The position numbers and the translations under genes are program-made. DNA of 64,000 bases from the NCBI RefSeq assembly GCF_009789235.1, contig NZ_WSTB01000004.1, forward strand, positions 124,001-188,000, written 5' to 3'. Below the pieces are notes generated by a model. The model saw nothing but the letters and a program-made list of their open reading frames with translations, searched no databases and had not been told where the DNA came from. This DNA comes from Flavobacterium hydrocarbonoxydans. GTDB lineage: Bacteria; Bacteroidota; Bacteroidia; Flavobacteriales; Flavobacteriaceae. Within the stretch, counting starts at the first letter, position 1. Every line of letters starts with the position of its first letter. Positions 10,298 through 39,943 of the stretch are shown here, one piece after another.

Positions 10298-10299
10298 GA

Positions 10300-10743: not shown

Positions 10744-10745
10744 GA

Positions 10746-11078: not shown

Positions 11079-11094
11079 AGTTATTATTTGTTTT

Positions 11095-11120: not shown

Positions 11121-11146
11121 TAATTAAATTTTTTTAGTTTGAAGTT

Positions 11147-11650: not shown

Positions 11651-11677
11651 TTTCAGCGTTCTTTTCTTTTGATGAAA

Positions 11678-11709
11678 CAAATGTAAGTAAAAGTTTTTAA
11701 ACTTTCAAA
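11678..11709 (-). promoter_or_regulatory. Promoter of the GbsR-type gene
   Basis: On the minus strand, TTTG (11709-11706), a 20-bp spacer and TACATTTG (11685-11678) match the Bacteroidota -33/-7 consensus. The -33 box lies inside the operator at 11699-11724, the geometry expected for autorepression. The implied transcript begins about 20 bases before the ATG at 11650. Confidence 0.75.
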
Positions 11710-11724
11710 AATAAATGAAAGTTT
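11699..11724. promoter_or_regulatory. Predicted operator 2 of the GbsR/MarR-type regulator
   Basis: AAACTTTCA (11699-11707), eight bases, TGAAAGTTT (11716-11724). Perfect arms, overlapping the -33 box of the regulator's own promoter. Confidence 0.75.
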
Positions 11725-12013
11725 GTTTGATATAATTTAATTTAAATCGAGAAAAACCTTTAAATCAGGTATTTATACTTGTAGGATTATTTTGTGTCAA
11801 TGCTTTATCTGATTTATACCCAATAAAGTCAATCCTGTAACATTTTATTAATGAAGGCTGTTTATTAGATATAGATTTGAACTTGAATTATAACCTAAAA
11901 TGTATTGTTTAGGATGTTTTTAAGACAGCTGTAATGATACAAGTAACGAATCAAATAGGAGCAGAACCCACTTAAAAAACGTTTTTCCGTAATAATTAAT
12001 AAACTTAGAAATA
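11725..12013. other. AT-rich gene-free divergent region
   Basis: Nearly 290 bases between the regulator promoter and the rightward CXXCH-protein gene. No ORF, repeat or canonical TAnnTTTG promoter for the rightward gene was found. Confidence 0.4.
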
Positions 12014-13474
12014 ATGAAAAAAAAATATACTATTATTAGCTTGCTACTTCTTGTGGTAATTGCTGTGGCTTTGTGGTTTTTTCTTTTTAATAGAAATAAC
12101 GCATTAAATTCATACACAAGTGTATCTTCTGAATCTTGCGATTGCGAAGAAAGCTGGTTTCCTCATGACCAGACTCCACCGCCGGCTGAAGGTGACGGAA
12201 GCCCGTTTGACACCACAAGCACAACTAACTGTATTTTTCATCAATGGTCATGGCAGAAGTTTTTGTGGCTGACCAAACCGTTGCCAAGTGGTAATCCGCT
12301 GTTTTTAGACTCTCTTAATCTAGTGAGTCCGGAGATGGAAAGTGTAAGTCCGCAATTAGGCTTAAAGTTGGTTTTAAGTTCCTACAACCAGGCTGGTCCT
12401 GCTGGTGTTTTGATTTCAAATCCAAAAGTAAATGCGGGCCAGACTGTTGGTGATACCGTATTTTATTCCATTCACATTAACAATGCTTTTATGGATAAAG
12501 CTGTTTTGGCTGCTTCTATGATTAATAGCGGAAGAACACCGTATTCTAATTTAGAAACTTTCCCTGTTGGTGCATTCGAATTAAAAGTTTCATGGATTAA
12601 TATTAATGCTATTGCAAAAGAGAAACGTGCAGATTATTTTACAACCAAAGCTGCTGTGAAAAATAATAGCGGACAGTATGCCATAAAAACGATGGCGTTA
12701 TTAGGAATGCACGTGGTAGGTGTGGTCAAAAACCATCCTGAATTTATCTGGGCGACTTTTGAGCATAAAGATATGGCTCCAGTTTATGATTGGAAAAACA
12801 ATAATGCCAATTCGGCAACTGAAACGTTGTTTTACGGAAAAGGAAAAACAACCGAGTTGGGTGGTATTACATGGGATACCCTCACGCATAAACCAATTCT
12901 TCCAAATCAGGCATTTGTTCTTTTTGAGTATGGAGTTCCAAAGGTTTCCGGCTCTGGTGCCTTTATGACTACCAGCCAATCTGAGCCTTTGAATTTTGAT
13001 AATATTGACAATATCAATAAATGTGTAGCAGGAAAATTAAAAGATGTTTTCAAAAACTATTTTTATAACGGTTCTATCTGGCTAAATACGGATGGATTAT
13101 CTTCTGAACAACAGGCAAAGACCATTGTAAAAAGTAAAATTTCTAGTGTCTTACCGGATTCTTTGGCAAGAGGTTCTTCTAATTTGGCGAACATTACCAT
13201 GGAAACCTACACACAAACGTTTAGTGATAGCATACACGATATTAATGCAGGTAATCTGGTAAATTGTTTTACCTGTCATCAGTCTCATAATTTTGATACG
13301 AAACGAGGAAACGGTAAATCGCCTTTGTATTTAAGTCATGTTTTCGAATCTTATCTGATGATCAATAAACCTAAATTACTAAGCAAACAGAATACTGCTA
13401 AAAGCAATCGTATTGAAGAAACAAAAGCACTTAAACTTGAACAGTTTAAGGAGTTTGTTCGCGATCATAAATAA
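12014..13474 (+). CDS. Membrane-anchored protein with one CXXCH haem-c motif
   Basis: 486 residues. The N-terminal anchor is LLLLVVIAVALWFFLF, followed by a periplasmic body with a Cys-rich start (CDCEESW) and a Trp-rich segment (HQWSWQKFLWLTKP). Near the C-terminus, VNCFTCHQSHNF provides a CXXCH motif typical of covalent haem c. It looks like a monohaem cytochrome-like protein, but no known enzyme family is recognised, and the large body before the motif is unassigned. It is monocistronic, ending at a bidirectional terminator. A metal-binding rather than haem role remains possible. Confidence 0.65.
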   Translation: MKKKYTIISLLLLVVIAVALWFFLFNRNNALNSYTSVSSESCDCEESWFPHDQTPPPAEGDGSPFDTTSTTNCIFHQWSWQKFLWLTKPLPSGNPLFLDSLNLVSPEMESVSPQLGLKLVLSSYNQAGPAGVLISNPKVNAGQTVGDTVFYSIHINNAFMDKAVLAASMINSGRTPYSNLETFPVGAFELKVSWININAIAKEKRADYFTTKAAVKNNSGQYAIKTMALLGMHVVGVVKNHPEFIWATFEHKDMAPVYDWKNNNANSATETLFYGKGKTTELGGITWDTLTHKPILPNQAFVLFEYGVPKVSGSGAFMTTSQSEPLNFDNIDNINKCVAGKLKDVFKNYFYNGSIWLNTDGLSSEQQAKTIVKSKISSVLPDSLARGSSNLANITMETYTQTFSDSIHDINAGNLVNCFTCHQSHNFDTKRGNGKSPLYLSHVFESYLMINKPKLLSKQNTAKSNRIEETKALKLEQFKEFVRDHK

Positions 13475-13542
13475 AGTGTCTTATTATTTTTAAATAAATC
13501 ATTCTGAAATTGACTTTTTGTATTACATTTAGTTTTAAACAA

Positions 13543-13575
13543 AAAAATCCGAAGTCGTTTGTACTTCGGATTTTT
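13543..13575. terminator. Bidirectional terminator
   Basis: AAAAATCCGAAGT (13543-13555) and ACTTCGGATTTTT (13563-13575) form a perfect 13-bp stem with a 7-base loop, between the convergent CXXCH-protein and SanA-like genes. Confidence 0.9.
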
Positions 13576-13577
13576 CT

Positions 13578-14267
13578 TTATCGCTTGTCTTCTTTTGAAT
13601 AATTTGAAACACCATTAATATCAATTTCATTACCTAAAAAGTGAGGTTCACGATTTCTCAAGACATCAAAAAAAGATTTGAAAGTCGAAAGATATTCTCT
13701 AAAACAGACATATTTATAACCTCGATATTTTCCTTTATTAGCAGAGTAACCTGCTGATTTTATTCCGAGTTCTTGTCCGATGTAAATTGCTCGGTTTAAG
13801 TGATATTTTTGAGATATTAAAGTGGCTTTTTTGATTTTAAAAATATGTTTGGCGCGATACATAGTCGAATAGGTATCGAAACCTGCGTAATCGATAAAGA
13901 TTTTAGTAGTGTCAACGCCATGTTTGAAACAATAATTTTTCATTACCGTTAATTCATCATATCCTTCACGGCCGTTATCTCCAGACAGTAAAATTTTATT
14001 AATTCGTTTCGCTTTGTATAAAAAGATTCCGGCATCAAGTCTGTCTTTTAGATATTTGCTGGGTTGGTCTCCGTTGATTCCGGCACCAAAAATAATTCCG
14101 ACATCATTTTTCGGAAATTTCCTTAACGAATAATGAATATCTCTTTTGGTAGCTGACTTTACATGTGAATTTACCGCAATAATTAAAATTAATACAATGA
14201 AAGAAAGTAAAACGAGTTTTTTAAGCAATTTTTTCAATTTTAAAAACGAATTAATCTTTAATATCAA
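13578..14267 (-). CDS. SanA/YdcF-like DUF218 membrane protein
   Basis: About 229 residues. One N-terminal membrane helix (LVLLSFIVLILIIAV) precedes a DUF218-type domain: DVGIIFGAGINGDQPSKYLKDRLDAG, ILLSGDNGREGYDE, a mid-part with STMYRAKHIF and SQKYHLNRAIYIGQELGI. SanA-type proteins affect envelope barrier function and vancomycin sensitivity at high temperature in enterobacteria. No ATG is available before the domain; the 5'-most start is a TTG at 14267, overlapping the 53-codon ORF upstream by 17 nt, and later TTG codons are possible. A tight arrangement with the zeta-like toxin operon is visible. Confidence 0.78.
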   Translation of the reverse strand: MILKINSFLKLKKLLKKLVLLSFIVLILIIAVNSHVKSATKRDIHYSLRKFPKNDVGIIFGAGINGDQPSKYLKDRLDAGIFLYKAKRINKILLSGDNGREGYDELTVMKNYCFKHGVDTTKIFIDYAGFDTYSTMYRAKHIFKIKKATLISQKYHLNRAIYIGQELGIKSAGYSANKGKYRGYKYVCFREYLSTFKSFFDVLRNREPHFLGNEIDINGVSNYSKEDKR

Positions 14268-14412
14268 CAGCGTTTATGGTCTGAATTTTTCCATCAGCAT
14301 AGACCACAATTTTTCCGTTAATTTTCTTTTTGTTTTCAATCATTTTTTTTGATGAAACCTTAAGACCTTCTACTATCTTATGTTGCAACTCTTTGATTTT
14401 ATCTTTTGTCAT
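14251..14412 (-). CDS. Small 53-residue lysine-rich protein beside zeta-like toxin
   Basis: An ATG at 14412 opens 53 codons ending in TAA at 14251-14253. The product starts MTKDKIKELQHKIVEGLK, has a run of Lys/Glu (SSKKMIENKKKINGK), and ends with a strand-like IVVYADGKIQTINAVDIKD. The start overlaps the end of the zeta-like gene by 14 nt and the end overlaps the SanA-like gene by 17 nt, which argues for a real, coupled cistron. It is a candidate antitoxin or accessory factor for the zeta-like protein by position alone; no antitoxin motif is recognised. Confidence 0.6.
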   Translation of the reverse strand: MTKDKIKELQHKIVEGLKVSSKKMIENKKKINGKIVVYADGKIQTINAVDIKD

Positions 14413-14986
14413 TTCTTAAATTATTTATTTTCTTAAATAAAATTTCATCTAAAATTATAGCTTCTTCATTAAGTTCCTTTTCCAGTATAAGAACTGGTAA
14501 TTTATTAGAATTATCAAATAACATTACATTATTGCATTTATCTAAATAAATTTCGAAAAGGTTTTTAATTCCTCTATGATATCGTCGTTCAATAATATCT
14601 TCAGGAATATTATGTCCTCCTTCGCTAACCCTAACAAGGACCCTCTGTTTTGCAAGCTCGATAGAATTTAGCCAAAAGAAAACTAATGTTACAAAGTATC
14701 CTTGATTTTGAGCCTTTTTTACAATCGAAATATAACTCTTTGCTGAAAGAGTTGTTTCAAAAGCAAAATCGGCCTGCTTTTCTAATAATTCATCAATGCG
14801 ATGGAGCATTATTCTGCCAGCTTCAAAACTAACTTTTTCAGGTTGAAAAGGAGATAGCCCCTTAGCAATTTCATCAGCATTTACAAACTCTTTACAATCT
14901 AAAATTTCAGGTAAGATTGTATAGGAAGCTGTTGTCTTTCCAGCTCCGTTACAACCTGCTATGATATATAAGTTTTTATCTTTCAA
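14399..14986 (-). CDS. Zeta-toxin-like P-loop kinase
   Basis: 195 residues with a TTG start. Walker A is IAGCNGAGKTT at about residues 9-19. Next come FVNADEIAKGLSPFQPE, ETTLSAKSYI and a late RVLVRVSEGGHNIPEDIIERRYHRGIKNL, which contains the basic residues typical of zeta-toxin or AAA_33 P-loop kinases. Zeta toxins phosphorylate UDP-N-acetylglucosamine in some systems; many homologues have unknown targets. The expected epsilon-type antitoxin is not upstream; a 53-codon ORF overlaps its 3' end instead. A TATCTTTG -7 box at 15003-15010 suggests its own promoter. Confidence 0.8.
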   Translation of the reverse strand: MKDKNLYIIAGCNGAGKTTASYTILPEILDCKEFVNADEIAKGLSPFQPEKVSFEAGRIMLHRIDELLEKQADFAFETTLSAKSYISIVKKAQNQGYFVTLVFFWLNSIELAKQRVLVRVSEGGHNIPEDIIERRYHRGIKNLFEIYLDKCNNVMLFDNSNKLPVLILEKELNEEAIILDEILFKKINNLRNDKR

Positions 14987-15002
14987 TAGTTTGAATGTTA
15001 AG

Positions 15003-15010
15003 CAAAGATA
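15003..15010 (-). promoter_or_regulatory. -7 element of the zeta-like gene
   Basis: TATCTTTG on the minus strand matches TAnnTTTG, 16 bases upstream of the TTG start at 14986. The -33 box is not clear. Confidence 0.4.
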
Positions 15011-15020
15011 TCTAAATTTT

Positions 15021-17048
15021 CTACAACAATCCCGCTCTCTTTAATAAAGCTTCAGGTTTTGGTTCCTGACCTCTAAAACGTTTGTACAAGATCATCGGAT
15101 GTTCTGTTCCTCCTTTTGAAAGTACATTGTCTTTGAATTTCTTCGCTACTTCAGGATTGAAAATGCCGTTTTCCTGAAAATATTCAAAAGCATCGGCATC
15201 CAGCACTTCAGCCCATTTGTAACTGTAATAACCTGATGAATAGCCACCTTGAAAAATATGCGAAAAAGCGGTACTCATCGCGTTTTCTTTTACATCAGGA
15301 TACAATTGTGTGTTGGCGAATTGTGCTGTTTCGAAAGTTTTCAAATCGGTAATATTCGTCGGATCTTGTCCGTGCCAGGCCATGTCTAATAATCCAAAAC
15401 TCAACTGACGCATAGTTGCTAGTCCTTCCTGAAAACTGGCACTTTCTTTAATTTTCTGAACATATTCTTGTGGAATGATTTCGCCTGTTTCATAATGATT
15501 GGCAAACAAAGCCAAAGCTTCCGGCTCGTAACACCAGTTTTCCATAATCTGACTTGGTAATTCTACGAAATCCCAATACACAGAAGTTCCCGATAAACTC
15601 GGATAGGTGGTGTTGGCCAACATCCCATGTAAACCGTGACCAAATTCATGAAACAAAGTCGTTACTTCATTAAAAGTCAACAACGAAGGTTTTGTTTCTG
15701 TGGGTTTTGTAAAATTACAAACGTTCGAAATATGTGGTCTTTCGTTTACGCCGTCTTTTATAGATTGTGATTTAAACGAAGTCATCCAGGCACCGTTACG
15801 TTTTCCTTTTCTAGGGAAAAAGTCGGCGTAGAAAATCGAAACCAAATTATTTTGTTCGTCGGTTACTTCGTAAGTTATAACTTCTTCATGGTATTTATCA
15901 ATATCAAAAATTTCGGTAAATGTTAATCCGAATAATTTTTTAGCAACCGTAAAAGCACCTTCTAAAACTTTTTCTAACTGAAAATAAGGTTTCAGTTTTT
16001 CGTCATCCAAATTAAAAAGCTGTTGTTTTAATTTTTCAGAATAATACGCTCCGTCCCATTTTTCCAATTGTTCGATTCCGTCTAACTTTTTCGCAAAAGC
16101 GGTTAATTCAGCAAATTCCTTTTGAGCTGCCGGCTTTGCTTTAGCCAATAAATCATTTAAAAATGTAAAAACTTTCTCCGGGCTTTGCGCCATTCTTTCT
16201 TCCAGAACAAAATGGGCGTGCGTTTTATACCCTAATAAATTGGCTCTTTCGAAACGTAATTTGGCAATTTTCAGTACATTTTCCTGATTGTCAAATTCGT
16301 TATTCTGAAAAGATCTTGCCCCAAAAGCAATCGCCATTTTTTTACGCAGTTCGCGATTATCGGCATACGTCAAAAACGGAACATAGCTCGGATGGTCTAA
16401 AGTGAAAATCCAGCCTTCTTTTTCCTGACTTTTCGCCAATAATCTGGCCGCTTCGATGGTACCTTCTGGTAATCCTGATAAATCTTTCTCATCTGTTAAA
16501 TGCAATTCGAAAGCATTGGTTTCGGCCAAAACATTCTCACCAAACTGCAAACTCAACATGGACAATTCTTTATCAATTTCGCGTAATTGATCCTTTTTGT
16601 CTTCGGCTAAATTGGCTCCGTTTCTGGAAAAACTTTTGTATTTTTTATCTAAAAGTGTCGTTTGCTCTGCATTTAGATTTAATTGCTGTTTTTGGTCGTA
16701 AACGGCTTTCACTTTTGTAAATAAGGCAGCATTTAAGGTGATGTCGTTTCCGAACTCTGATAATAAAGGCGAAACTTCCTGAGCAATTTTTTGCATTTCA
16801 TCATTCGTTTCAGCCGAATTCAGATTAAAGAAAATACTGGAAAGACGGTCCAAAATATCACCTGCAAATTCCATTGCCAGAATGGTATTCTCAAAAGTTG
16901 GTGCTTCAGGATTGTTTACGATGGCATCAATTTCGGCTTTCGCCAAAGTAATTCCTTCCTGAAAAGCAGGAAAATAATCTTCGATTTTGATTTGAGAAAA
17001 AGGTGCTGTGTTATGTTTTGTATTGAAAAATTGTGTTAAGATGCTCAT
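15021..17048 (-). CDS. M3 family oligopeptidase / peptidyl-dipeptidase (Dcp type)
   Basis: 675 residues, the usual length for cytoplasmic M3 metallopeptidases. The zinc site LFHEFGHGLHGML lies near residue 466, with a third-ligand region SQIMENWCYEPEAL about 28 residues later. The C-terminal substrate-binding part contains FQGGYSSGYYSYKWAEVLDADAFEYF, which is highly characteristic. It cleaves short peptides and helps recycle amino acids. No signal peptide is present, so it is predicted to be cytosolic. It is flanked by two toxin loci but is itself housekeeping in character. Confidence 0.92.
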   Translation of the reverse strand: MSILTQFFNTKHNTAPFSQIKIEDYFPAFQEGITLAKAEIDAIVNNPEAPTFENTILAMEFAGDILDRLSSIFFNLNSAETNDEMQKIAQEVSPLLSEFGNDITLNAALFTKVKAVYDQKQQLNLNAEQTTLLDKKYKSFSRNGANLAEDKKDQLREIDKELSMLSLQFGENVLAETNAFELHLTDEKDLSGLPEGTIEAARLLAKSQEKEGWIFTLDHPSYVPFLTYADNRELRKKMAIAFGARSFQNNEFDNQENVLKIAKLRFERANLLGYKTHAHFVLEERMAQSPEKVFTFLNDLLAKAKPAAQKEFAELTAFAKKLDGIEQLEKWDGAYYSEKLKQQLFNLDDEKLKPYFQLEKVLEGAFTVAKKLFGLTFTEIFDIDKYHEEVITYEVTDEQNNLVSIFYADFFPRKGKRNGAWMTSFKSQSIKDGVNERPHISNVCNFTKPTETKPSLLTFNEVTTLFHEFGHGLHGMLANTTYPSLSGTSVYWDFVELPSQIMENWCYEPEALALFANHYETGEIIPQEYVQKIKESASFQEGLATMRQLSFGLLDMAWHGQDPTNITDLKTFETAQFANTQLYPDVKENAMSTAFSHIFQGGYSSGYYSYKWAEVLDADAFEYFQENGIFNPEVAKKFKDNVLSKGGTEHPMILYKRFRGQEPKPEALLKRAGLL

Positions 17049-17087
17049 GTAGAATTTAATGATTTAAAAATTAAAAGATTGAAAGAA

Positions 17088-17375
17088 TTATAATTTGAAT
17101 TGCTTTAAATCTTGAAAATTATTCCAAAAACGCAGTAATTGGATAGTGTTGTTTTCTATTCTATAATAAAGTGAAATATGTTTTGTTATGACAATTTTAT
17201 AAACGTTTCTGTAGTTAGTTTTTACAAATAAAACATTGTCATTTTTTAAAAGAGCTATTGTAGCATCTACTTTCTCAATAAAACTTGCTGCAACTTTTAC
17301 AGACCATTCGGCTTCTAAATAATCGATATTATTCCAAAAGTCTTTTTTAGCCTGTGGAGCCCAAATTACAATCAT
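17088..17375 (-). CDS. ParE/RelE-type toxin
   Basis: 95 residues with the ParE/RelE-like arrangement: VIWAPQAKKDFWNNIDYLEAEW at the N-terminus, then helices and strands including NYRNVYKIVITKHISLYYRIENNTIQLLRFWNN. Members are ribosome-dependent mRNA interferases (RelE) or gyrase poisons (ParE); which one applies is not decidable here. Its ATG overlaps the antitoxin stop by one base, the standard layout with the antitoxin first. Confidence 0.82.
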   Translation of the reverse strand: MIVIWAPQAKKDFWNNIDYLEAEWSVKVAASFIEKVDATIALLKNDNVLFVKTNYRNVYKIVITKHISLYYRIENNTIQLLRFWNNFQDLKQFKL

Positions 17376-17602
17376 TATTTAAAATATTTTGAATAACGAT
17401 TTTTGGTTTCTTCCATAACAGCATCGTGCGGAGTTCCTTCATTATTTTCTAAAGAATATATAGCCTCGTCTATGCGGTGCTTTTGCTCATCAGAAAGATT
17501 TTCTTTTGATTGAATGAAGTCAACAATTTCCTGAATTAGATCAGGATTATCTATATCTAAAACAATTTTGGCCAGTTCTATTTTAGAGGTTTGAATGTTC
17601 AT
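17375..17602 (-). CDS. Antitoxin partner of ParE/RelE-type toxin
   Basis: 75 residues. An N-terminal segment (SKIELAKIVLDIDNPDLIQEIVDFIQSKE) is followed by a helical, charged C-terminus (DEAIYSLENNEGTPHDAVMEETKNRYSKYF) likely to wrap the toxin. It is identified mainly by its one-base overlap with a ParE/RelE-type gene. A consensus promoter (17616-17646) lies directly upstream and is partly embedded in an intergenic repeat. Confidence 0.75.
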   Translation of the reverse strand: MNIQTSKIELAKIVLDIDNPDLIQEIVDFIQSKENLSDEQKHRIDEAIYSLENNEGTPHDAVMEETKNRYSKYFK

Positions 17603-17615
17603 TTCGCTTTTTTAT

Positions 17616-17646
17616 CAAAGTTAAGGTTTATTTTTTGTTCCACAAA
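17616..17646 (-). promoter_or_regulatory. Promoter of the ParE-type toxin-antitoxin pair
   Basis: Minus-strand TTTG (17646-17643), 19 bp, TAACTTTG (17623-17616). The -33 box lies in the CACAAAG word of the intergenic repeat at 17637-17750. Confidence 0.65.
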
Positions 17647-17750
17647 GTCTCGCTAAGTAAACACAGAGATTCACAAAGTTTTCTTCAATAATAAATTAAA
17701 AAAAATCTTAGCGAATCTCTGTGGTATTTCTCTGTGAGTCTCTGCGGAAT
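17637..17750. repeat. Imperfect inverted-repeat block between purE and the TA pair
   Basis: The left arm has CACAAAGTCTCGCTAAG and CACAGAGATTCACAAAG. The right arm has CTTAGCGAATCTCTGTGG and CTCTGTGAGTCTCTGCGG. Shared words (CACAGAGATTC and CGCTAAG, with their complements) make an imperfect stem of some 45 nt with an AT-rich centre. It is probably a dispersed element and also possibly the purE terminator. Confidence 0.55.
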
Positions 17751-17758
17751 AAATAACC

Positions 17759-18244
17759 TTATTTTTTCAATCCTTCAGCCGCTTTGTTAACGGCAGCTTT
17801 CAATTCTTCTTTGTAGGAGATAATAGTTTCAAGAACGTTTTTATCATGACTTCCGATGATTTGAGCGGCTAAAATTCCGGCATTTTTTGCTCCGTTTAAT
17901 GCCACAGTTGCAACAGGAACTCCGCCTGGCATTTGCAGAATCGACAAAACCGAATCCCAACCATCAATAGAATTGCTTGATTTTACTGGAACTCCAATTA
18001 CAGGAAGAGGAGACATCGAAGCCACCATTCCAGGTAAATGTGCAGCTCCTCCAGCTCCGGCAATAATGACCGAAATGCCACGAGTGTGTGCATTTTTGCT
18101 GAAATCGAATAATTTTTCCGGAGTTCTGTGTGCCGAAACGATATCTACTTCTACTTCAATATTAAATTGTTTTAATATGTCGATGGCATCCTGCATAACT
18201 GGCATGTCTGAGATGCTTCCCATTATAATGGCTACTTTGCTCAT
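17759..18244 (-). CDS. purE: N5-carboxyaminoimidazole ribonucleotide mutase
   Basis: 161 residues, class I PurE. The N-terminus is VAIIMGSISDMPVMQDAIDILKQF, then VSAHRTPEKLFDF, AGAGGAAHLPGMVASMSPLPVIGVPV and LLSILQMPGGVPVATVA-like sequence with NAGILAAQIIG. It converts N5-CAIR to CAIR in purine synthesis, together with PurK. The usual partner purK lies 2 kb upstream on the same strand; an ATPase-HNH pair separates them. Confidence 0.96.
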   Translation of the reverse strand: MSKVAIIMGSISDMPVMQDAIDILKQFNIEVEVDIVSAHRTPEKLFDFSKNAHTRGISVIIAGAGGAAHLPGMVASMSPLPVIGVPVKSSNSIDGWDSVLSILQMPGGVPVATVALNGAKNAGILAAQIIGSHDKNVLETIISYKEELKAAVNKAAEGLKK

Positions 18245-18263
18245 GTGTTTTTTTGTTTGTTTT

Positions 18264-18288
18264 GTTTCAGGTTTCAGGTTTCAGGTTT
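18264..18288. repeat. Short GTTTCAG tandem array
   Basis: GTTTCAG repeated three times with a fourth partial unit, directly upstream of purE. The same word recurs as an inverted pair at 29113-29160. Confidence 0.5.
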
Positions 18289-18318
18289 GAAAACTGTTAC
18301 TATAATATTGTTTAATTT

Positions 18319-18915
18319 TTATTGTGGATCAGGTAGTAAACTCCAAATGTCAATCTTGAATTCTTTATCAATGGCTCTCAAATAAGATATTTGTTTTACA
18401 TCGTCATCAATTAATACTTTAAAGAAAACTTCTGGTGATTCACCATATAAGGCAAGTTCTTTAGTTTTTCTTTGAATGTATTTTTTTCTTTCGTCAGCTA
18501 AAATAATATCATCAAGCTTTAATAAATTTATCAAATTGACAGCTTCATTATCATTTAAATCAGAAACTCTATAATCGCCATCATCGTAAACTACTCTTTC
18601 ATCAAAATCAATTGCTGTTGGGTGCAAAACAGGTTGATAATCTTCCCATTTGGTAGATTTTTCTTTATTCCATTGATGTTTGACTAAAAACCAATTTGAA
18701 TAAGAATCTTTTTTAGTTCCTTTTAAAGTTGGATTAAAATGTTCGATATCTCTTGCGTCTGCTCTTCCTAAATATTCTTCTGTATAAACACAAAATCCCT
18801 TTTGTTCTTTGTATAAGATTTTCGAAATTTTTAAATTATTATTTGAATTGCCTTCGATATAACCCAAATTACTTTTTTTAACTTCGGAATCGTCATTTTT
18901 AATAACTCTTCTCAT
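18319..18915 (-). CDS. HNH nuclease-like protein (PtuB-like)
   Basis: 198 residues. An HNH-type finger is visible: KEQKGFCVYTEEYL (C42), DIEHFNP with H59, then YSNWFLVKHQWNKEK with N74 and N83. In many PtuB/TIGR02646-type proteins the first knuckle is CxxC and a Cys precedes the last Asn; here these positions are Thr45 and Trp82, so the structural zinc site looks lost or altered while the catalytic His is kept. It starts 2 nt after the ATPase gene, the usual order of Septu-type defence systems. It may be a nuclease effector; the assignment is by layout and motif. Confidence 0.72.
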   Translation of the reverse strand: MRRVIKNDDSEVKKSNLGYIEGNSNNNLKISKILYKEQKGFCVYTEEYLGRADARDIEHFNPTLKGTKKDSYSNWFLVKHQWNKEKSTKWEDYQPVLHPTAIDFDERVVYDDGDYRVSDLNDNEAVNLINLLKLDDIILADERKKYIQRKTKELALYGESPEVFFKVLIDDDVKQISYLRAIDKEFKIDIWSLLPDPQ

Positions 18916-31215: not shown

Positions 31216-33360
31216 ATGAAAAAAATAATTTTATTCTTTACCATGTTACTTATGGCTTTTCCGGTAAGAGCTGATGAAGGAATGTGGTTTTTGATGTTCA
31301 TCGAAAGACTGAATCATCGAGATATGCAAAAAATGGGCTTGCAATTGACAGCTCAGGAAATTTACAGTATTAACAATCACAGTTTAAAAGATGCGATTGT
31401 ACAATTTAATGGTGGATGTACTGCTGAAATCGTTTCAAAAGAAGGTTTAGTTCTAACGAATCACCACTGTGGATACAACGCAATTGCAGAACTTTCGACT
31501 GCTGAACAAAACTATTTAAAAGATGGTTTTTGGGCGAAAGAAAAAAGCGCTGAAATGAAACCAAAATCATTATACGTTCGTTTCTTCGTGCGTATGGATG
31601 ATGTTTCGAAAAGAATTTTGTCAAAAGTAAACGATACAATGACAGAAACAGAAAGAAACAAAGTCATTCAGCAAGAGATTGCATTAATTGAAAAAGAAAA
31701 TAACGAAGGCGGAAAATATACGGTTTCTGTTCGTCCTTTCTTTCAGGGAAATGAATATTACTATTTTGTTTACCAGGATTACACAGACGTTCGTTTAGTA
31801 GGAACGCCTCCGGAAAGTGTTGGTAAATTTGGAGGGGATACAGATAACTGGGAGTGGCCTCGTCAAACAGGAGATTTCTCTATGTTCAGAGTTTATGCTG
31901 ATAAAAACGGTAATCCTGCAGCGTATTCTAAAGACAATGTGCCTTTGCAGCCAAAGCATTATTTGCCAGTAAGTATCAAAGGGGTTAAAGAAAATGATTT
32001 TGCCATGATTTTGGGTTATCCTGGAAGAACAAACCGCTGGATGCCGGCTGGTGGAATCGAGCAAAACATTCAATACGCTTATCCTGCCTGGGTTGAAGGT
32101 GCTAAAACCGGAATGGACCAAATGAAAAAATATATGGATGCTGATGCAACAGTTCGTTTGCAATATGCTTCAAAATATGCTTCGACAGCGAATTACTGGA
32201 AAAATCGTCAGGGAATGATTGATGCTTTAACAAAAGCTGGAACGGTTGAAGCTAAAACGGGACAAGAAGATAAGTTCTACGAATGGGCAAGTAAGGATGC
32301 TAATAAGGAAAAATACGAAAATGTAATTCCAACTATTAACAACTATTACCGACAAACCAATATAAAAGCACGCCACGATAATTACCTTATGCAGCTTTTG
32401 CGTACGTCTAGTTATGCAACAGGACCAGCAAATTTAGGAAACGCATTAATCGCTTACTATAACGAAAATGATGCAAAAAAAGCAGAAATGCTTCCTAAAA
32501 TAAATGCCATGATTGAAACCATCTATGGCGAATTTTACGCTCCATTAGAAAAAGATGTTTTAACGGCACAATTAAATTTGTATTCTTCTAAAGCTGCTGA
32601 ATATGGTTTGGCAACACATATCGCTAAAATGAAATCTGAAAATAATGGAGATTTTACAAATGATGTAGCAAAAGCAACAGAAGTAAGTTATTTTACTACT
32701 AAAGAAAAAGTGCTGGCGTTTATGGCAGATCCAAAGCCATTGGCAATTGTACACGACCCGTTGTATATTATTTCTAATGATTTATTGACAAAATACCGTG
32801 CAAAAACAGATGATCAAACCAGAGCTGACGACGTTTTTGCAACAGCTTATCGTAAATTGGTTGAAGGTTTTAGAGAATCAAAACTAAATGCGATTCAATA
32901 TCCGGATGCCAATTCTACATTAAGATTGACGTATGGAAAAGTTCGCGCTTTACCTGCAGACCCTCGCAATGATGCTAAAATCAACAATTATACAACCATG
33001 GAAAGTATGGTGAAAAAGTATAAAGCAGGTGATCAGGAATTTGATTTACCGGCTCGTTTATTAGAATTGAACAAAGCAAAAGATTTTGGTCAATATGCGG
33101 ATAAAGCAGGATATATGCCAGTAAATTTCTTAACGGATAACGATATCACAGGAGGAAATTCAGGTTCACCGGTTCTTAACGGAAAAGGAGAATTAATTGG
33201 AATTGCTTTTGACGGAAATATCGAAGCTATGGCGGGTGATGTTATTTTTGATCCTAATTTGCAAAGAACTATCAACGTTGATATTCGTTATGTACTTTGG
33301 ATTATTGACAAATACGCCGGAGCAAAAAATATTATAAATGAATTGACGATTATTAAATAA
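31216..33360 (+). CDS. S46 family dipeptidyl-peptidase, DPP7-like
   Basis: 714 residues with a signal peptide (LFFTMLLMAFPVRA). The chymotrypsin-like catalytic parts of family S46 are visible: TNHHCGY at 81-87 (His), a central all-helical insertion, and GGNSGSPVLN with Ser649. The specificity position, 18 residues after the Ser, is Gly667 (FDGN). In family knowledge a Gly there marks DPP7 (hydrophobic P1 preference) and an Arg marks DPP11 (Asp/Glu). It releases dipeptides from N-termini in the periplasm for peptide nutrition. Monocistronic. Confidence 0.93.
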   Translation: MKKIILFFTMLLMAFPVRADEGMWFLMFIERLNHRDMQKMGLQLTAQEIYSINNHSLKDAIVQFNGGCTAEIVSKEGLVLTNHHCGYNAIAELSTAEQNYLKDGFWAKEKSAEMKPKSLYVRFFVRMDDVSKRILSKVNDTMTETERNKVIQQEIALIEKENNEGGKYTVSVRPFFQGNEYYYFVYQDYTDVRLVGTPPESVGKFGGDTDNWEWPRQTGDFSMFRVYADKNGNPAAYSKDNVPLQPKHYLPVSIKGVKENDFAMILGYPGRTNRWMPAGGIEQNIQYAYPAWVEGAKTGMDQMKKYMDADATVRLQYASKYASTANYWKNRQGMIDALTKAGTVEAKTGQEDKFYEWASKDANKEKYENVIPTINNYYRQTNIKARHDNYLMQLLRTSSYATGPANLGNALIAYYNENDAKKAEMLPKINAMIETIYGEFYAPLEKDVLTAQLNLYSSKAAEYGLATHIAKMKSENNGDFTNDVAKATEVSYFTTKEKVLAFMADPKPLAIVHDPLYIISNDLLTKYRAKTDDQTRADDVFATAYRKLVEGFRESKLNAIQYPDANSTLRLTYGKVRALPADPRNDAKINNYTTMESMVKKYKAGDQEFDLPARLLELNKAKDFGQYADKAGYMPVNFLTDNDITGGNSGSPVLNGKGELIGIAFDGNIEAMAGDVIFDPNLQRTINVDIRYVLWIIDKYAGAKNIINELTIIK

Positions 33361-33469: not shown

Positions 33470-36400
33470 TTATTGTTTCACTTTTACCCGAATTCCTTTG
33501 GTATGACTGGCGAATTCAGGAGCATACATACTCTGGATTGTGGTAATTCCATTAGAAAATTCTCCACTATTGTTCACCCGAATATCATATTCTAAAATAT
33601 AGGTTCCTTTGTTGATTTGGTCAAAAAAGAAATGTGTTGCAGCATCTTTTGTACTCCTATAATATCCTAAACCATCTTTGTATTGGTATTCTGAAAGTAC
33701 AGCTACAGGCTCAAAACAAGAAGCACGCATGTCTTTTAAATGTACAAATTCCACGTCTTCCTTCGATGAAATTATCAATCTCACGGTAACCAAATCGCCC
33801 GTTTTTAATTCATTTTTAGAAGAGATTTTTTCTAATTCATCTCCTTTCAAAGTGCTTTTCTTCAAATACAATTCTTTACTAACAGATAAAACTGCCCCGG
33901 AGTTATTTTGAATTTTATCCAAATCTTCAAAATATTGCCAATACACGCCGCCATATCCCGGAACTTTCGATTTGTTTTCGATAGAAATTGACGCCATTTC
34001 TTTTTTTACTTCTTCTGCTTTCCAGTTGAGTTTGATGTAACCTGTTTCTGCTTCTTTTTCGTTTTCTGACAGTTTTTTGGTTATGATTTTTTCATTACCA
34101 AGTTTGATGATAGTATTGTCTTTTACACTTGTCCAGTCGGTGCCTTGCATCAATAAAGCATAAATGGCTTCGGTTGTTGATTTTGTGGTGGGCCAGTTTT
34201 TGGTTTGTTTGTTTTTTAATAGCCAGACTTTCATAGCATCGACTGATTTGGTGTCCTGAGTCACTTCGGCGAAAGCCTCAATCAATAAAGCCTGAGTTTC
34301 AATAGGCGCCTGATACCAATACCAGCCTGCTTTATTGGCAATCCAGTACATGCCCCAATCTTCGTTATTTGATGACGTTTCTTTTAGGCTTTCGATGATT
34401 TTTTTAGCCGTTTCTTTTTCTCCAAAACGATTCAGTGCCAAAGCGGCTAATCCTTTTTCGTAAAGCGAATAGGTAAGCCAGTCTTTTTTAGCGGCTTCAA
34501 AATACATTTTAGACGCTTTTTTCAAAGTATCCGAAAGTGGGTGTTTTTCCAAATAAAAGCTTCTTGTGTAGAAATAATGTAAATCAGCATTAGGATTTAC
34601 CCAAATCAATTTATTTGTAGCTTTAGCATTCTTTGTTCTGATTTTGTGATAGTCTAAAAACTTACGGTCTAAAAACGGAATTCCAGTCTTAGCAATTTCG
34701 TCCATTTTAGAAGTATTATTTTCGTCTTTACTCAATTTAGATAAATGGCCTAATCCTGCCAGAATGTGTCTGGTGATGTATTCGCTTTCGTCGCTGCCTT
34801 CAAACCATGGGAAACCTCCGGATGATTTTTGTTTTTGCTTTAATTTATCGAAAGTGGCTTCCTGAGAATTTTTCATTTTTTCTAAATCGAATAACAGCCC
34901 CAGATTCTTTTTCTTTTCGTCTTCACTTTTAGCATCATTTAGCCAGGGTGTTTCTGCCAGAATTATCGATTTTAATTCTTCGTTTTCTTCTAATTTGGAA
35001 TTTAGATTTCCGCTTTTTCTCCACTTTTCAAACACAGTAGCAATTTTTGGATTACTCCCGATAATATCCGAAGCCAGCGCATTGGCATAAAATCGTGCAA
35101 AAGTCTGTTCCGCGCATTCATGTTCGTATTCCATCAAATAAGGAAGAGACTGAATGGTAATCCATGTTGGGTTTGATGTATATTCGAAAGTAAACTGATG
35201 ATTTTTTAAAGTCGATGAGGTATTGTTTTTTAAATTCTCAAACGTATATTCTTTTTTAGAATTCTCACGAACCCAAATCGGAATACTTTCTGTAACCAGC
35301 ATATTATTCGTTAAAACCGGAAGTATGTTTTCTTCACCATCCGAATAATCACCTGATTTTGCCAGAATTTTATACTGAACACCTTGTAAGCCTTCCGGAA
35401 TTGTAATAGTCCAGTTGGCTGTTGTATTACCAAAAGCCGGAATGGTAAAGTTCTTAACGTTTTGCGCATTCAGCATTTCGTTGTCTATTGGCTGCATGGT
35501 TGCAGCATCAAAAAACTGCAGCATGGCAATTCCTGTTTTGGCTTCGCCGGTAATATTCGAGATTTTAGCACTAATTACAATGGTGTCTTTCTCTCTGAAA
35601 AAGCGAGGAAAATTGGGTAAAATCATTAACTCTTTTTGAGTAAGGACAATTTTTTCTAAATAACCTGTAATCGCTTTTTTATTATGAGCTAGCAAACGAA
35701 GTTTCCAAGATGTTAATGCTTCCGGAGAAGTAAAGTTGAAGCTTACTTTTCCGTCTGCATCAGTTCTTAAATTCGGTAAAAAGAAAGCAGTTTCAGAAAG
35801 ATTTTTTCTTGCTTTTACCTGTGTCAGTTCTTCTAATGCTTTTTTGGTGTTAATGATAATCACTCCATTTGCACCTCTGCTTCCGTAAAGAGCGGTTGCT
35901 TTGTCATCTTTTAAAACATCAACAGATAAAATAGTCGCAGGATCTATATTTTTTATATCATTTATAATTTGTCCATCCACCACATATAAAGGAGTTTTTC
36001 CTTCAAGACTGGCTGCTCCTCTAATTTGTACACCTGCAACAACACCTGCAACACTGGTACTGTCTGCTCCAACTAGAAAATTTCCTGTACTAATTCGCGA
36101 AATTGATGCAGAGAGACTGGCTTTCTTAGTCTGTATCCCATAACCGGTAACAACAACTTCTTCTAGACTATTGTGGTCTTCAGTTAGAACTATATCGATA
36201 ATTTTTGCATCTTTGACTATTATGGACTGATTTTTAAAACCGATATAACTAAAAACAAGTTCTTCGTTTCTTACAGCTTCAATTTCATAATAACCATCAA
36301 AATCAGAACTTGTACCTCGTTGTGTTCCTTCGATTGTAATGCTAACCCCAGGAAGCGGCATATTCGATTCGTCTGTTACGATTCCGGAAATCAATTTGGC

Positions 36401-39400
36401 ATTAATTGGTTTTTCTGCTTTTTTGCGAAGTTGTTTTTGATATTCTCTTTGAAGGAAAACAGAATTATTAGCATTGTTAAAATCAAATCCAAACCAGATA
36501 AGCTTGGCCGTTTCATTATGAAGTTCAATTCTGTTTTTTGGGATATTTAAATTCTGAAGATAACTTGATGTTTTTTCAAAACCCAAATCTGATTTAATAT
36601 TACTGCTATTATAGGAGTAATCATAAAATCCCAAAGTGTTCCAACTGCTTGCTGCAAATTGGTCTAAGGAGCTGTCATACATCGAGGCCAGCACTTCGGC
36701 TTCATTTTTAGTATGGGTCGATTTTAATTTAAAGGACCAGTTTTCATTAGTTCCGGGTTGTAGTTTGCTTCTAAAAGTTTCGGTAGTAAACTCCAGTTTT
36801 GGTGCTTCAGTTTTTAAAAATACGTCAATATCTTTGTTGAAAACAGTATTCTCAAAAACACTCTGAATTCCTATTTTTAAATGCTTTTCAAATTCTTTTT
36901 TTAATGCGATTTTAATGATTTTTTCATTGTTTTCAAGATGTTCTGTTTTTTCAAAAAAGACTTTACTATCGTAATTTCCTGTAACAGAAAAATAAAGCTC
37001 AGGAATCACCGACGTTATTTTTAAGAGAACAAAACCATCTTTTTTAGGATCTTCATTAATCTGTTTGATACTAAATAAAGTACTGGTATTAAACTTGTCT
37101 TTGCTTTGCGTAATCTGAAAATCCGTGGAAGATTTTATAGTATTATCAAAACTATCTTTAGCTGAAAATACTATTTTATAATTCCCTGATTTATAATTTG
37201 AAATGAAATCCAAAACAATCTTTTTATCTTTTTCTGTATCTATTTTTTTAGAATAAAGTAAAGTTGTTGTGGTATCAGTTGTTATTTTTTCGTTTTGTTC
37301 ATAAGGAAACAAGCGTTCAAAATCTGCATTCTTTATGGTTTCAAAATCAGGTACGGGCCAGACTCTGGGTTTGAATTTTCCGGAAAAAGGACTTTTATAA
37401 AAGATTTTGATTTCGCCTTTGACAGCCAGGAATTCGCCATTTAAGTTGGTGCTCGTAAGTAGAATTTCGTTTTTATTTTTGGTTTCAATTTGAAAAGGAA
37501 CTGAGGTACCCAATACCAAGTCATGATAACCAACTTTTACATCGGTTTCAGCATCGTGAGTTTCGCCGTTAATATCAGTAACAGTGGTTTTTATATGATA
37601 ATTAAAAACAGGTAATTGCTCTTTTTTAGTGTTTTTAGGAGGAATTGCAGTAAAGTCAATACTGAATTTTCCCGAAGCATCTGTTTTCGTTTCGCCGGTA
37701 ATTATAATTTCCGTTTCTTCATCTGGTCCGGAAAAACCTCTAAAATAATTGGAATATCGGGTAACCGTGTATTTCACTACAGCATCAGAAATGTTGCTGC
37801 CCGCAAAAGCTTTCGCACTTCCTTGTACTTTAATCAGCTCATTGACCTTAAAGCTCTCTTTTTTTGGTTCAAAAGTAATTTCAAATTTTGGACGTTTGTA
37901 TTCCTCAACTCTAAAATCAATTGCAGAATCTTCAAAGTCAACATTTTCCCAGAAAGCGTGTTCGTCTTTACCTTTGTTATAGTCTATGTCATTTTCATAA
38001 GTATCAGGTTCATCTGCTTCAATGGTAAAATTACCTGTCAAGCCATTTTTTGGTAAAACGAATTCCCCCGAAAAAGAACCGAATTCATTTGTAATAACAT
38101 CAAATTCTTTAAAATCATTATAATCAGCGTCCTGAATAATAATTTTGAATGTTGTTTTAGCCACTACCTTTGTTTCATTATTCTTTTTTTGGATGGCAAT
38201 CCCTTTGTAATAAACCGTTTGCCCGGGGCGATAAATTGCCCGGTCTAAATAAAAATCTACTTTTCCTTTAAAATCATCTTCGTTTTCGTTATCATTTTTG
38301 GAATATTCATTAAAATAGCTGAGATAGTTTTTCTGAACTAAAACAGTATCATTTTTCGTTGATAATTCAATATCGTTATTGTTGTAAATGAATTTCTTTT
38401 GACTGTAAGATGCAACACCGTTTTTATTCGTTTTTAAATTATAATGTTTCGATTTTACCGTCACATTCTCTAATGGTTTTCCGGTTTTTCTGTCCAGAAC
38501 CTGAAACGTTTCTCCGGAAATATTCTGAGAAGCCAAAACAGCTAAATTAGAAACAGTAATGGTTTCATAGGAAAAAGCTTTTTCGTCTTTGGTTTCTGAA
38601 TCACTTTCAAAATAAACCAAATAAGAACCGGTTTTTAAATTTGGTAAAAGTACCTCGGTAGTGTATTCAAAAAAATCATTTTTGTTTTTGATGGTATAGT
38701 TTTGGGTTACAATAACTGCCCCTTTTTGGATAATAACGGATGCTAAAGTGCCTTTTTTAGAATAATCTCTTAAATCTAAAAGTTGTTTTTGATTGATTTT
38801 ATAGAAAGAAACTTTTACTTCTGAAACATTTTTATATCGAATAAGGGCTCTCGTATTTTCATCTGAATAACTGTATTTCTGAAGCTGAATATTTAATGAT
38901 TTGGATTGAATATATCCTTTTTGCTGTACAGCCAGTTTGTAAGCGTTTGATCTGTTATTTACGGCAATAATACTGTCTAATAAAAAGACAGCCTGGATGT
39001 TATAATCCGGATGAGTTTCTTTTGAAGCTTTTTGCGATAAAACAGAAGCTTTTTCCAATTGAATGTTCTGAATCAGAATAGCTTCTTTTGTTTCTTTTTG
39101 AAGGGAAGTCAAAGCTGGGAAATAAGCCTCGTCAGAATCCAGAAGATTATTTTTGCAGTATTGCATGCGCTCCAGCTGATTGTCTCCGGAGGGGTTGTTC
39201 GATTCCTGATTTTGATATAAAGATAAAACGGTACGTAGGTTTTCATTTGTAGCAAAACCGAAATCGACCTTTATGAAATCTGTAGATTTCCCTAAAAGTT
39301 GTTTGGTATAGGGCGTAAAATCACTTTTTACAACTTCCCATTGATGCACTTTTTGTTTGTAAAAAGCCAGATTTTCTTTTAAAAGATAATCAAAAAGGTT

Positions 39401-39943
39401 TTCTTTTTTGAATTTCTCTAAGGTAAAAAAATCAAAGATTGCCTCGTATTTTTCTAATGAAGTTGATTTTAAAACGGTTTCGTTTTCTAAAGTCTTTTTC
39501 ATAATCAAACCTATTTGATTTTTGAAAGTAGCTTCAGTCCAGGTCAAAAAATCTTCATCAAAAGCATTGGTATTGGTTCTGCTTCTGATTTTAGAATTGT
39601 TTCTGTTGTAATAATCATTCAGACACTTCGCGTAAACGAAATTCAATATTGCTTTTGATGGAATCGAAACACGGTTAATTTCGCTTTTCAAATTATTTAT
39701 AATCTTCGTTTGTGCATTTTCATCAACCGTTTGCAGGTATTTCGACTGATAAAAAAAGCATTTTATCATTTGCACTTCGTCTTTATTTTCTACCGCTTTT
39801 TTATAGATTTCGACAACAATCTCGTTCGATGATTTTATTTTTCCTTCGTTTTCATAGTTAATTACTTTGGCCCATTTTTTATCATTTTGTTGAGCGAATA
39901 GCGTTGTAGAAAACAATAAGAACGCAAATAATATTTTTTTCAT
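33470..39943 (-). CDS. Alpha-2-macroglobulin-like protein with embedded SusC-type plug segment
   Basis: 2157 residues with a signal peptide (FAFLLFSTTLFAQ). The N-terminal half is macroglobulin-like: YRPGQTVYYKGIA, GLTGNFTIEADEPDTYENDI, and FKVNELIKVQGSAKAFAG. At about 1185-1370 an insertion shows a carboxypeptidase-regulatory domain (GIVTDESNMPLPGVSITIEG) and a TonB plug (LEEVVVTGYGIQTKKASL, VRGAAS-like QIRGAAS, GKTPLYVVDGQ, SVDVLKDDKATALYGSRGANGVIII). The A2M core then resumes (FFLPNLRTDADGKVSFNFTSPEALTSWKLRLLAHN), with a thioester-type Cys-Ala-Glu-Gln near 1610 (YEHECAEQ) and helical toroid repeats. It would be a periplasmic protease trap; the role of the plug segment is unknown. Convergent with the S46 gene. 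Confidence 0.88.
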   Translation of the reverse strand: MKKILFAFLLFSTTLFAQQNDKKWAKVINYENEGKIKSSNEIVVEIYKKAVENKDEVQMIKCFFYQSKYLQTVDENAQTKIINNLKSEINRVSIPSKAILNFVYAKCLNDYYNRNNSKIRSRTNTNAFDEDFLTWTEATFKNQIGLIMKKTLENETVLKSTSLEKYEAIFDFFTLEKFKKENLFDYLLKENLAFYKQKVHQWEVVKSDFTPYTKQLLGKSTDFIKVDFGFATNENLRTVLSLYQNQESNNPSGDNQLERMQYCKNNLLDSDEAYFPALTSLQKETKEAILIQNIQLEKASVLSQKASKETHPDYNIQAVFLLDSIIAVNNRSNAYKLAVQQKGYIQSKSLNIQLQKYSYSDENTRALIRYKNVSEVKVSFYKINQKQLLDLRDYSKKGTLASVIIQKGAVIVTQNYTIKNKNDFFEYTTEVLLPNLKTGSYLVYFESDSETKDEKAFSYETITVSNLAVLASQNISGETFQVLDRKTGKPLENVTVKSKHYNLKTNKNGVASYSQKKFIYNNNDIELSTKNDTVLVQKNYLSYFNEYSKNDNENEDDFKGKVDFYLDRAIYRPGQTVYYKGIAIQKKNNETKVVAKTTFKIIIQDADYNDFKEFDVITNEFGSFSGEFVLPKNGLTGNFTIEADEPDTYENDIDYNKGKDEHAFWENVDFEDSAIDFRVEEYKRPKFEITFEPKKESFKVNELIKVQGSAKAFAGSNISDAVVKYTVTRYSNYFRGFSGPDEETEIIITGETKTDASGKFSIDFTAIPPKNTKKEQLPVFNYHIKTTVTDINGETHDAETDVKVGYHDLVLGTSVPFQIETKNKNEILLTSTNLNGEFLAVKGEIKIFYKSPFSGKFKPRVWPVPDFETIKNADFERLFPYEQNEKITTDTTTTLLYSKKIDTEKDKKIVLDFISNYKSGNYKIVFSAKDSFDNTIKSSTDFQITQSKDKFNTSTLFSIKQINEDPKKDGFVLLKITSVIPELYFSVTGNYDSKVFFEKTEHLENNEKIIKIALKKEFEKHLKIGIQSVFENTVFNKDIDVFLKTEAPKLEFTTETFRSKLQPGTNENWSFKLKSTHTKNEAEVLASMYDSSLDQFAASSWNTLGFYDYSYNSSNIKSDLGFEKTSSYLQNLNIPKNRIELHNETAKLIWFGFDFNNANNSVFLQREYQKQLRKKAEKPINAKLISGIVTDESNMPLPGVSITIEGTQRGTSSDFDGYYEIEAVRNEELVFSYIGFKNQSIIVKDAKIIDIVLTEDHNSLEEVVVTGYGIQTKKASLSASISRISTGNFLVGADSTSVAGVVAGVQIRGAASLEGKTPLYVVDGQIINDIKNIDPATILSVDVLKDDKATALYGSRGANGVIIINTKKALEELTQVKARKNLSETAFFLPNLRTDADGKVSFNFTSPEALTSWKLRLLAHNKKAITGYLEKIVLTQKELMILPNFPRFFREKDTIVISAKISNITGEAKTGIAMLQFFDAATMQPIDNEMLNAQNVKNFTIPAFGNTTANWTITIPEGLQGVQYKILAKSGDYSDGEENILPVLTNNMLVTESIPIWVRENSKKEYTFENLKNNTSSTLKNHQFTFEYTSNPTWITIQSLPYLMEYEHECAEQTFARFYANALASDIIGSNPKIATVFEKWRKSGNLNSKLEENEELKSIILAETPWLNDAKSEDEKKKNLGLLFDLEKMKNSQEATFDKLKQKQKSSGGFPWFEGSDESEYITRHILAGLGHLSKLSKDENNTSKMDEIAKTGIPFLDRKFLDYHKIRTKNAKATNKLIWVNPNADLHYFYTRSFYLEKHPLSDTLKKASKMYFEAAKKDWLTYSLYEKGLAALALNRFGEKETAKKIIESLKETSSNNEDWGMYWIANKAGWYWYQAPIETQALLIEAFAEVTQDTKSVDAMKVWLLKNKQTKNWPTTKSTTEAIYALLMQGTDWTSVKDNTIIKLGNEKIITKKLSENEKEAETGYIKLNWKAEEVKKEMASISIENKSKVPGYGGVYWQYFEDLDKIQNNSGAVLSVSKELYLKKSTLKGDELEKISSKNELKTGDLVTVRLIISSKEDVEFVHLKDMRASCFEPVAVLSEYQYKDGLGYYRSTKDAATHFFFDQINKGTYILEYDIRVNNSGEFSNGITTIQSMYAPEFASHTKGIRVKVKQ

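Follow-up and report, generated by a model that had tools for sequence, protein, structure and literature searches.

What is the periplasm-facing end of a SusC/RagA-type outer-membrane transporter doing inside a protein of the alpha-2-macroglobulin (A2M) family? The question arises from a 64,000-nucleotide stretch of Flavobacterium hydrocarbonoxydans DNA (NZ_WSTB01000004.1, positions 124,001 to 188,000; the window hereafter), in which an earlier note had described a single frame coding for macroglobulin-like domains that are interrupted by a CarboxypepD-regulatory domain and a TonB plug without a barrel. We recovered this frame at 33470..39943 with the same residue numbering, and add that it lies on the minus strand, which the note had left unstated. 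Three features were absent from that description: a Ton box, the fact that the insert fills the bait region, and the mosaic make-up of this region among relatives. The domain anatomy, the bait position, the recurrence and the swapping of modules across Bacteroidota are established, and the novelty is the kind of bait, the A2M family and the SusC modules each being known; no description of SusC modules or of a Ton box in an A2M was found among the papers listed in our searches of open-licence PMC literature.

A SusC-type transporter end at the bait position of an A2M

By the features examined, the window protein is an A2M and not a transporter, because an outer-membrane beta-barrel is absent. 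Its MG2, A2M and bMG10 domains all exceed the Pfam cut-offs, and the CAEQ motif, a predicted thioester of the CxEQ type, forms the start of a helix within a helix-rich stretch of the AlphaFold model, consistent with a thioester domain. The features are as follows.

33470..39943, minus strand: A2M-family protein of 2157 residues (single open frame without internal stop; Pfam; Foldseek of the 1049-2157 model)
39890..39943, minus strand: type I signal peptide, about residues 1-18, assigned by eye from the sequence (MKKILFAFLLFSTTLFAQ)
38006..38254, minus strand: MG2 domain, residues 564-646 (Pfam PF01835, E 5e-17)
35810..36661, minus strand: bait region, residues 1095-1378 (284 residues), between the halves of the bait-bearing macroglobulin (MG) domain
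36149..36391, minus strand: SusC-type N-terminal extension (NTE), residues 1185-1265 (Pfam CarbopepD_reg_2, E 2.1e-18)
36137..36166, minus strand: Ton box LEEVVVTGYG, residues 1260-1269, overlapping the end of the Pfam NTE match
35861..36112, minus strand: compacted SusC-type plug, residues 1278-1361 (Pfam PF07715, E 4.7e-8; TIGR04057 at 1338-1367; 8aa4)
35537..35791, minus strand: A2M domain PF00207, residues 1385-1469 (Pfam, E 2.3e-14), preceded by the alpha'NT-like strand RKNLSETAFF from residue 1379
35105..35116, minus strand: thioester-type motif CAEQ, residues 1610-1613 (sequence motif)
33515..33889, minus strand: bMG10 (C-terminal macroglobulin) domain, residues 2019-2143 (Pfam, E 1.2e-31)

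The A2M core and the CxEQ motif thus resume behind the insert (Pfam A2M at 1385-1469, CAEQ at 1610), as the earlier note had stated. No lipobox was detected by regular expression in any of the 90 proteins longer than 1900 residues, the window protein among them, and we regard the latter as probably a soluble, periplasmic A2M protease trap.

The insert is an NTE, a Ton box and a compacted plug in SusC order, without a barrel. The NCBIfam SusC/RagA model TIGR04056 matches residues 1185-1383 (E 9.4e-59, 199.7 bits) over model positions 3-220 of 981, with a score short of the cut-off (368), which is what a protein lacking the barrel should give; coverage stops at position 220, and Pfam gave no barrel match for the window protein. 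The SusC signature TIGR04057 is above its cut-off (49.4 versus 46.2), so that annotation pipelines may misname this protein. When residues 1185-1383 were compared with PDB sequences, they matched SusC 8aa4 (E 2e-21), Bt1763 5t3r (4.5e-19) and RagA 6sli (1.3e-18), and in Bt1763 the Ton box is DEVVVTG and the NTE is PF13715 (PMC7782687, which, like the other papers cited here by PMC number, is cited for an excerpt). Together, the Pfam, NCBIfam and PDB matches confirm the two barrel-less modules named in the earlier note. The GC content of the insert is 0.367 versus 0.332 for the remaining gene.

AlphaFold modelled residues 1049-2157 (56 alignment rows) with pLDDT 79 and pTM 0.67, but two stretches came out with low confidence, model residues 51-112 and 211-264 (about 1099-1160 and 1259-1312 of the protein); the second contains the Ton box and has pLDDT under 50. 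Foldseek retrieved the Salmonella A2M 4u4j as the top match of this model (E 3.7e-32), followed by ECAM, CD109 and TEP1 and later by C3 and C5, with low TM-scores (about 0.2-0.3 by query) that reflect unmatched domain packing. Modelled alone (29 rows; pLDDT 74, pTM 0.40), the insert gave a match to the NTE of SusC 9hfj (E 6.6e-8, TM by target 0.87, rmsd 0.8); its match to the plug of SusC 8aa4 was weaker (E 1.9e-3, 56 columns, 46% identity). The structure prediction for which the earlier note had called therefore yields a firmly predicted NTE fold, while the plug core is the weaker part, its fold being probable and compact. For model m70634867e416, Foldseek also returned a 146-residue chain of the extended BAM complex of Flavobacterium johnsoniae (9n2d_E, E 2e-5, rmsd 18.2).

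The bait is flanked by SMYDSSLD and RKNLSETAFF, and the insert stops directly before the latter. When the sequence that follows the insert was turned into a profile, it aligned to the post-bait segment of C5 (7.5e-5), E. coli YfhM (2.6e-4) and frog A2M 7s62 (7.2e-4; profile positions 3-101 on residues 718-817); human A2M matches overall at 1.5e-6, the post-bait stretch by itself being weak there (i-Evalue 1.7). This alignment, the start of the Pfam A2M domain at 1385 and our own alignment all place the bait before the alpha'NT strand. The Pfam bait-domain model A2M_BRD has no match in the window protein; it matches a protein of a distant subfamily (L272) and, below cut-off, another (L273). In human A2M, the alpha'NT strand behind the bait (R732, F735) threads a channel and retracts upon bait cleavage, and complement factors carry an anaphylatoxin domain at the bait position, before alpha'NT (excerpts of PMC9352918). 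In our reading, RKNLSETAFF would be the counterpart of this strand, with R1379 matched to R732 by reading the sequences and not by superposition.

Chance, a frame error or an assembly artefact is excluded, since the insert is present in orthologues of other genomes: seven full-length ones among 60 relatives carry it at 44-69% identity, the remaining relatives showing a portion of it or nothing, and NTE plus plug occur in 42 of 94 close A2Ms. The earlier note would have given up the insert had it been unique to this assembly and broken at repeat boundaries; however, the only repeats in the gene are short (20-30 bases, two copies each, 70-91% identity) and none of them bound the insert, so that repeat-mediated insertion is rejected as well.

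Recurrence, turnover and origin of the bait modules

To call modules in three sets of baits, we used a strict Ton-box regular expression together with hidden Markov models (HMMs) derived from 10 SusC seeds and applied at E<0.01. Set A holds 94 different close A2Ms in which the end of the bait could be recognised (from the best 80 of at least 581 loci, 16 further loci and the window) and was chosen for closeness to the query, so that its module rate is not the rate of the phylum. A phylum sample of 392 genomes, 130 of them with a match, gave 120 bait regions taken among the matches listed; set B comprises 82 baits with strong matches to the same profile and set C 38 baits of distant subfamilies. 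Sets A and B have one bait in common.

At least one SusC module is present in 74/94 baits of set A, 34/82 of set B and 9/38 of set C. Within set A, 32 baits hold the full NTE-Ton-plug series, 19 a plug only, 10 NTE and plug without a strict Ton box, seven a Ton box only, four NTE and Ton box, two Ton box and plug, and 20 none. Pfam alone (E up to 0.01) detects Plug in 50 and CarbopepD_reg_2 in 46 of the 94, and in 13 and 19, respectively, of the 82 in set B. A strict Ton box lies within 260 residues before the bait end in 45/94 proteins and nowhere else in 170,495 residues, whereas residue shuffles (200 trials) gave 0.26 proteins with a Ton box on average and three at most. Outside the bait, the plug HMM had no match and the NTE HMM four marginal domain rows only (E-values 0.037-0.28). 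Across 176 baits, the recurrent Pfam models are Plug and CarboxypepD_reg, the others found in three or more baits being TTR/Ig-like sandwich models; neither barrel or SusD domains nor any other common unrelated domain were seen to recur. In distant subfamilies, Pfam finds NTE and plug in two proteins (L269, L271), NTE in one (L270), CarboxypepD_reg with a sub-threshold Plug (E 0.0038) in L272 (a longer piece of the L215 gene), and neither in L273. The baits of L157, L211 and L215 have pieces (DEVIVVSERP, INIRGGRTDG) that we take to resemble Oar-type rather than SusC-type receptors. A2M baits have thus been rewritten repeatedly with the cell's own transporter modules, in near and distant A2M subfamilies. 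Winogradskyella echinorum (L108) has tandem A2M genes (6236-12370 and 12473-18904), one with a module-free bait and the other with NTE, Ton box and plug.

The compositions range from full sets through plug ends and lone Ton boxes to a reversed order, in which a plug-type LxGRxxG motif stands ahead of the Ton box (7/214 baits). The 80 plug modules found in A2Ms include 29 that are near-complete and 31 that consist of the C-terminal end alone. Moreover, 86 pairs of proteins have C-terminal parts at least 85% identical yet differ in module class (for example L099/L115 at 93.7% and L049/L052 at 91.4%). On a tree of the C-terminal parts, the minimum number of changes is 15 for NTE, 10 for plug, nine for any module and 24 for the strict Ton box, the last count being inflated because the strict expression skips decayed boxes; the counts are blind to gain versus loss, and the tree is a quick one with SH-aLRT support only and some long branches. 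Over 20 kb, neighbours that we take from their sequences to be the housekeeping-like genes mpl and obgE are conserved in 58/70 and 51/70 loci, respectively. As the surrounding gene order is mostly kept, the locus looks inherited while its bait was rewritten. The window protein and its close orthologue L041 are 60% identical in the N half and 84% in the C half, the N half diverging much faster. L046 and L078 differ at a synonymous divergence (dS) of 1.47 in the N half versus 0.45 in the C part, which is a sign of intragenic recombination between lineages.

One probable capture can be followed in Winogradskyella ludwigii (L099), whose bait DNA tracks that of L115 at 92% up to base 191 but from base 240 onwards resembles a SusC gene from the same genome (68% identity). 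At the protein level its plug is 61-62% identical to this SusC, and no other A2M bait in the sample exceeds 43%. We infer from these identities that the SusC piece was captured in L099 and not lost in L115. Overall, 15/80 plug modules and 4/74 NTE modules have their closest counterpart among 36 sampled SusC and not in another A2M bait; the remainder are closest to other A2Ms, the pattern that inheritance of the inserts would give.

For the window bait, a recent single transfer from an own-genome SusC was rejected, since it is 65% identical to the nearest other A2M bait, that of L056, versus 42% to the nearest of the 36 sampled SusC, and 46% is the best identity to own-genome SusC, which rejects these as recent donors. 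Blastn of the window insert against 20 own SusC segments gave patches only, those of at least 55 bases being 68-77% identical and the longest 115 bases. A second A2M in this genome was likewise rejected, as PF00207 has a single match there, and a 1836-residue frame with two weak NTE-like matches turned out to code for a GH18 protein that has CarboxypepD_reg repeats. On contig C1 of the same genome, 449-5953 of L268 codes for a GH18 protein of 1834 residues with six CarboxypepD_reg stretches.

Persisting SusC modules look constrained. The Nei-Gojobori ratio of non-synonymous to synonymous divergence (omega) between the window protein and L056 is 0.12 in the N part, 0.22 in the NTE, 0.31 in the Ton-linker, 0.20 in the plug and 0.06 in the C part, estimates that are rough because many dS values exceed 1. 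For the NTE, omega is 0.10-0.39 in 13 of 14 pairs, the other (1.11) involving L061, which lacks an NTE by HMM; for the plug it is 0.08-0.30 in 12 of 14, with one pair at 0.93 and one undefined.

Proposed transporter mimicry and its alternatives

Bait cleavage is the trigger of an A2M trap, and the bait sequence decides which protease triggers it (excerpts of PMC9352918, PMC8267569 and PMC4498604). We propose tentatively, at a probability that we would put only a little short of even, that a bait rebuilt from the periplasm-facing SusC/RagA end serves as a transporter-mimicking bait. Two stretches of predicted disorder, one with the Ton box, would lie beside folded NTE and plug beads, and an intruding protease would meet the same exposed sequence as on the cell's own transporters, a sequence that resident proteases would already have to spare. 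A cut in the bait would let the alpha'NT strand leave its channel, the A2M would collapse, and the thioester would capture the protease. In human A2M, the bait sequence sets the triggering proteases and no part of the bait is otherwise essential, according to an excerpt of PMC8267569; because of this, the keeping of SusC pieces in a bait suggests that they are of use. If the bait has to look like a transporter end, mosaics and a reversed order are easier to understand than if a single fixed site were needed. Also in favour are the A2M fold and the disordered linkers of the models, the CxEQ motif in most of these proteins, the recurrence and narrow choice of modules, their turnover in a mostly conserved gene order and the low omega of NTE and plug. 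The earlier note had instead thought of a plug that docks onto an outer-membrane transporter or acts as a signalling or anchoring module. Signalling through TonB may still apply. Docking or anchoring is not supported as the main idea, as the plug is compacted and several relatives keep only the Ton box, and we favour a proteolytic trigger over docking or anchoring because the insert replaces the bait region.

Several observations weigh against a transporter-mimicking bait. SusC modules in the bait are not required, because many baits are without any by HMM and regular expression (20/94, 48/82 and 29/38 in sets A, B and C). The window bait far exceeds the 39 residues of the human A2M bait (PMC8267569, in part), and when the bait of human A2M is extended, the collapsed form is favoured (an excerpt of PMC9352918). 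SusC modules abound in these genomes, the one studied here having 83 plug matches, which provides many donors for chance recombination. An omega below 1 could be explained by folding alone, and the Ton-linker ranges from 0.08 to 1.07 over 14 pairs (1.07 in one), some linkers being without visible constraint. Finally, CxEQ stands behind the bait in 85/95 proteins and is missing from 10/95, including the insert-bearing L042, L043, L068, L072 and L077. In these five, the thioester cysteine is substituted (SAEQ, GAEQ; SAEH in L077) despite a full insert. In insert-bearing A2Ms without this cysteine, covalent trapping cannot account for everything, and they may trap without covalent capture or have another function.

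The Ton box could alternatively recruit TonB, its C-terminal domain binding the bait such that the A2M would be positioned at TonB-ExbBD, where foreign proteins enter, or be sensed through it, with the NTE giving TonB specificity. The SusC context of the Ton box and its place in a stretch of predicted disorder agree with recruitment, as does the suggestion in an excerpt of PMC7782687 that the NTE is a TonB-specificity domain, and recruitment accounts better for lone Ton boxes: among eight baits of group f5 (same order) without NTE and plug, the motif is in six the most regular element behind a conserved FNWF, though most of the remaining C-terminal bait half differs, and a Ton box also occurs in L109, L111, L114 and L115, as well as in L117, where a weak plug match accompanies it. 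Yet a strict Ton box is missing from 29/74 module-bearing baits of set A and 14/34 of set B, and the set A tree requires no fewer than 24 changes of the motif (the inflated count given above), so that we find recruitment doubtful, albeit worth serious attention. A wider form of it, in which Bacteroidota A2M traps are wired to TonB, their baits repeatedly replaced by Ton-box ends and the trap stationed, or sprung by pulling, by TonB to guard protease or bacteriocin entry to the periplasm, we consider unlikely. Slightly more doubtful than simple recruitment is a neutral landing pad, a bait that tolerates inserts and in which abundant modular SusC pieces accumulate by recombination as a foldable spacer only. 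Hypervariable mosaics with their occasional LxGRxxG-then-Ton order, the many SusC donors per genome and the wholly replaceable human bait (PMC8267569, in part) are what such a pad would give, but it leaves the narrow choice of modules over 176 baits, their persistence at low omega (most NTE and plug pairs) and the same kind of capture in distant A2M subfamilies to be explained. Lastly, cleavage might free the NTE-plug, as anaphylatoxin is freed from C3-C5, and the freed plug might block or signal to a transporter barrel. The insert does share its position with the anaphylatoxin domain (PMC9352918, in part), and a SusC plug can exit its barrel in vitro (PMC7782687, in part); however, a single cut frees nothing and two are needed, and the plug is compacted here and only C-terminal in 31/80 modules, which makes release highly improbable.

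Neighbourhood and known systems

Pairing with PBP1C is known for bacterial A2Ms. No functional partner stood out among the neighbouring genes when related loci were compared over 20 kb. In the window, an S46 peptidase gene (31216-33360; Dpp7-like, below the NCBIfam cut-off) is convergent with the A2M gene, and S46 matches occur in 30/70 related loci over 20 kb.

To our knowledge, what bacterial A2Ms defend against is still an open question. If the bait does mimic a transporter end, the enemy would be something that meets that end, which would give a handle on the target of A2M defence. Moreover, a soluble protein that keeps NTE, Ton box and plug together without a barrel is a system for studying NTE function and TonB binding.

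Like the SusC/RagA transporters Bt1763, BT3090 and RagA, the window protein has NTE, Ton box and plug in that order; unlike them, it lacks a barrel, its plug is compacted, and the modules sit inside a trap-type protein. The 83 plug matches of its own genome include the window protein, and the other 82 lie in frames of 641-1242 residues, which by frame length is transporter-sized; barrel matches, counted separately, number 61 in this genome. With the bacterial A2Ms E. coli YfhM (ECAM) and Salmonella SaA2M, the protein shares the fold of the C-terminal half, the A2M-type domains, the CxEQ motif and a bait inserted in an MG domain, but YfhM is named a lipoprotein in the PDB whereas the window protein has no lipobox, and their bait is largely disordered (an excerpt of PMC4498604) while that of the window protein holds SusC NTE, Ton box and plug. 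In complement C3, C4 and C5 the bait position, immediately ahead of alpha'NT, is likewise taken by a folded domain (PMC9352918, in part), although the anaphylatoxin domain is unrelated, and the window insert is bacterial and derives from outer-membrane transporters. The engineered tabula rasa human A2M also shows that a bait sequence is replaceable and decides the choice of protease (PMC8267569, in part), but there the bait is a man-made Gly-Ser stretch of 39 residues, whereas here it is natural, long and partly folded.

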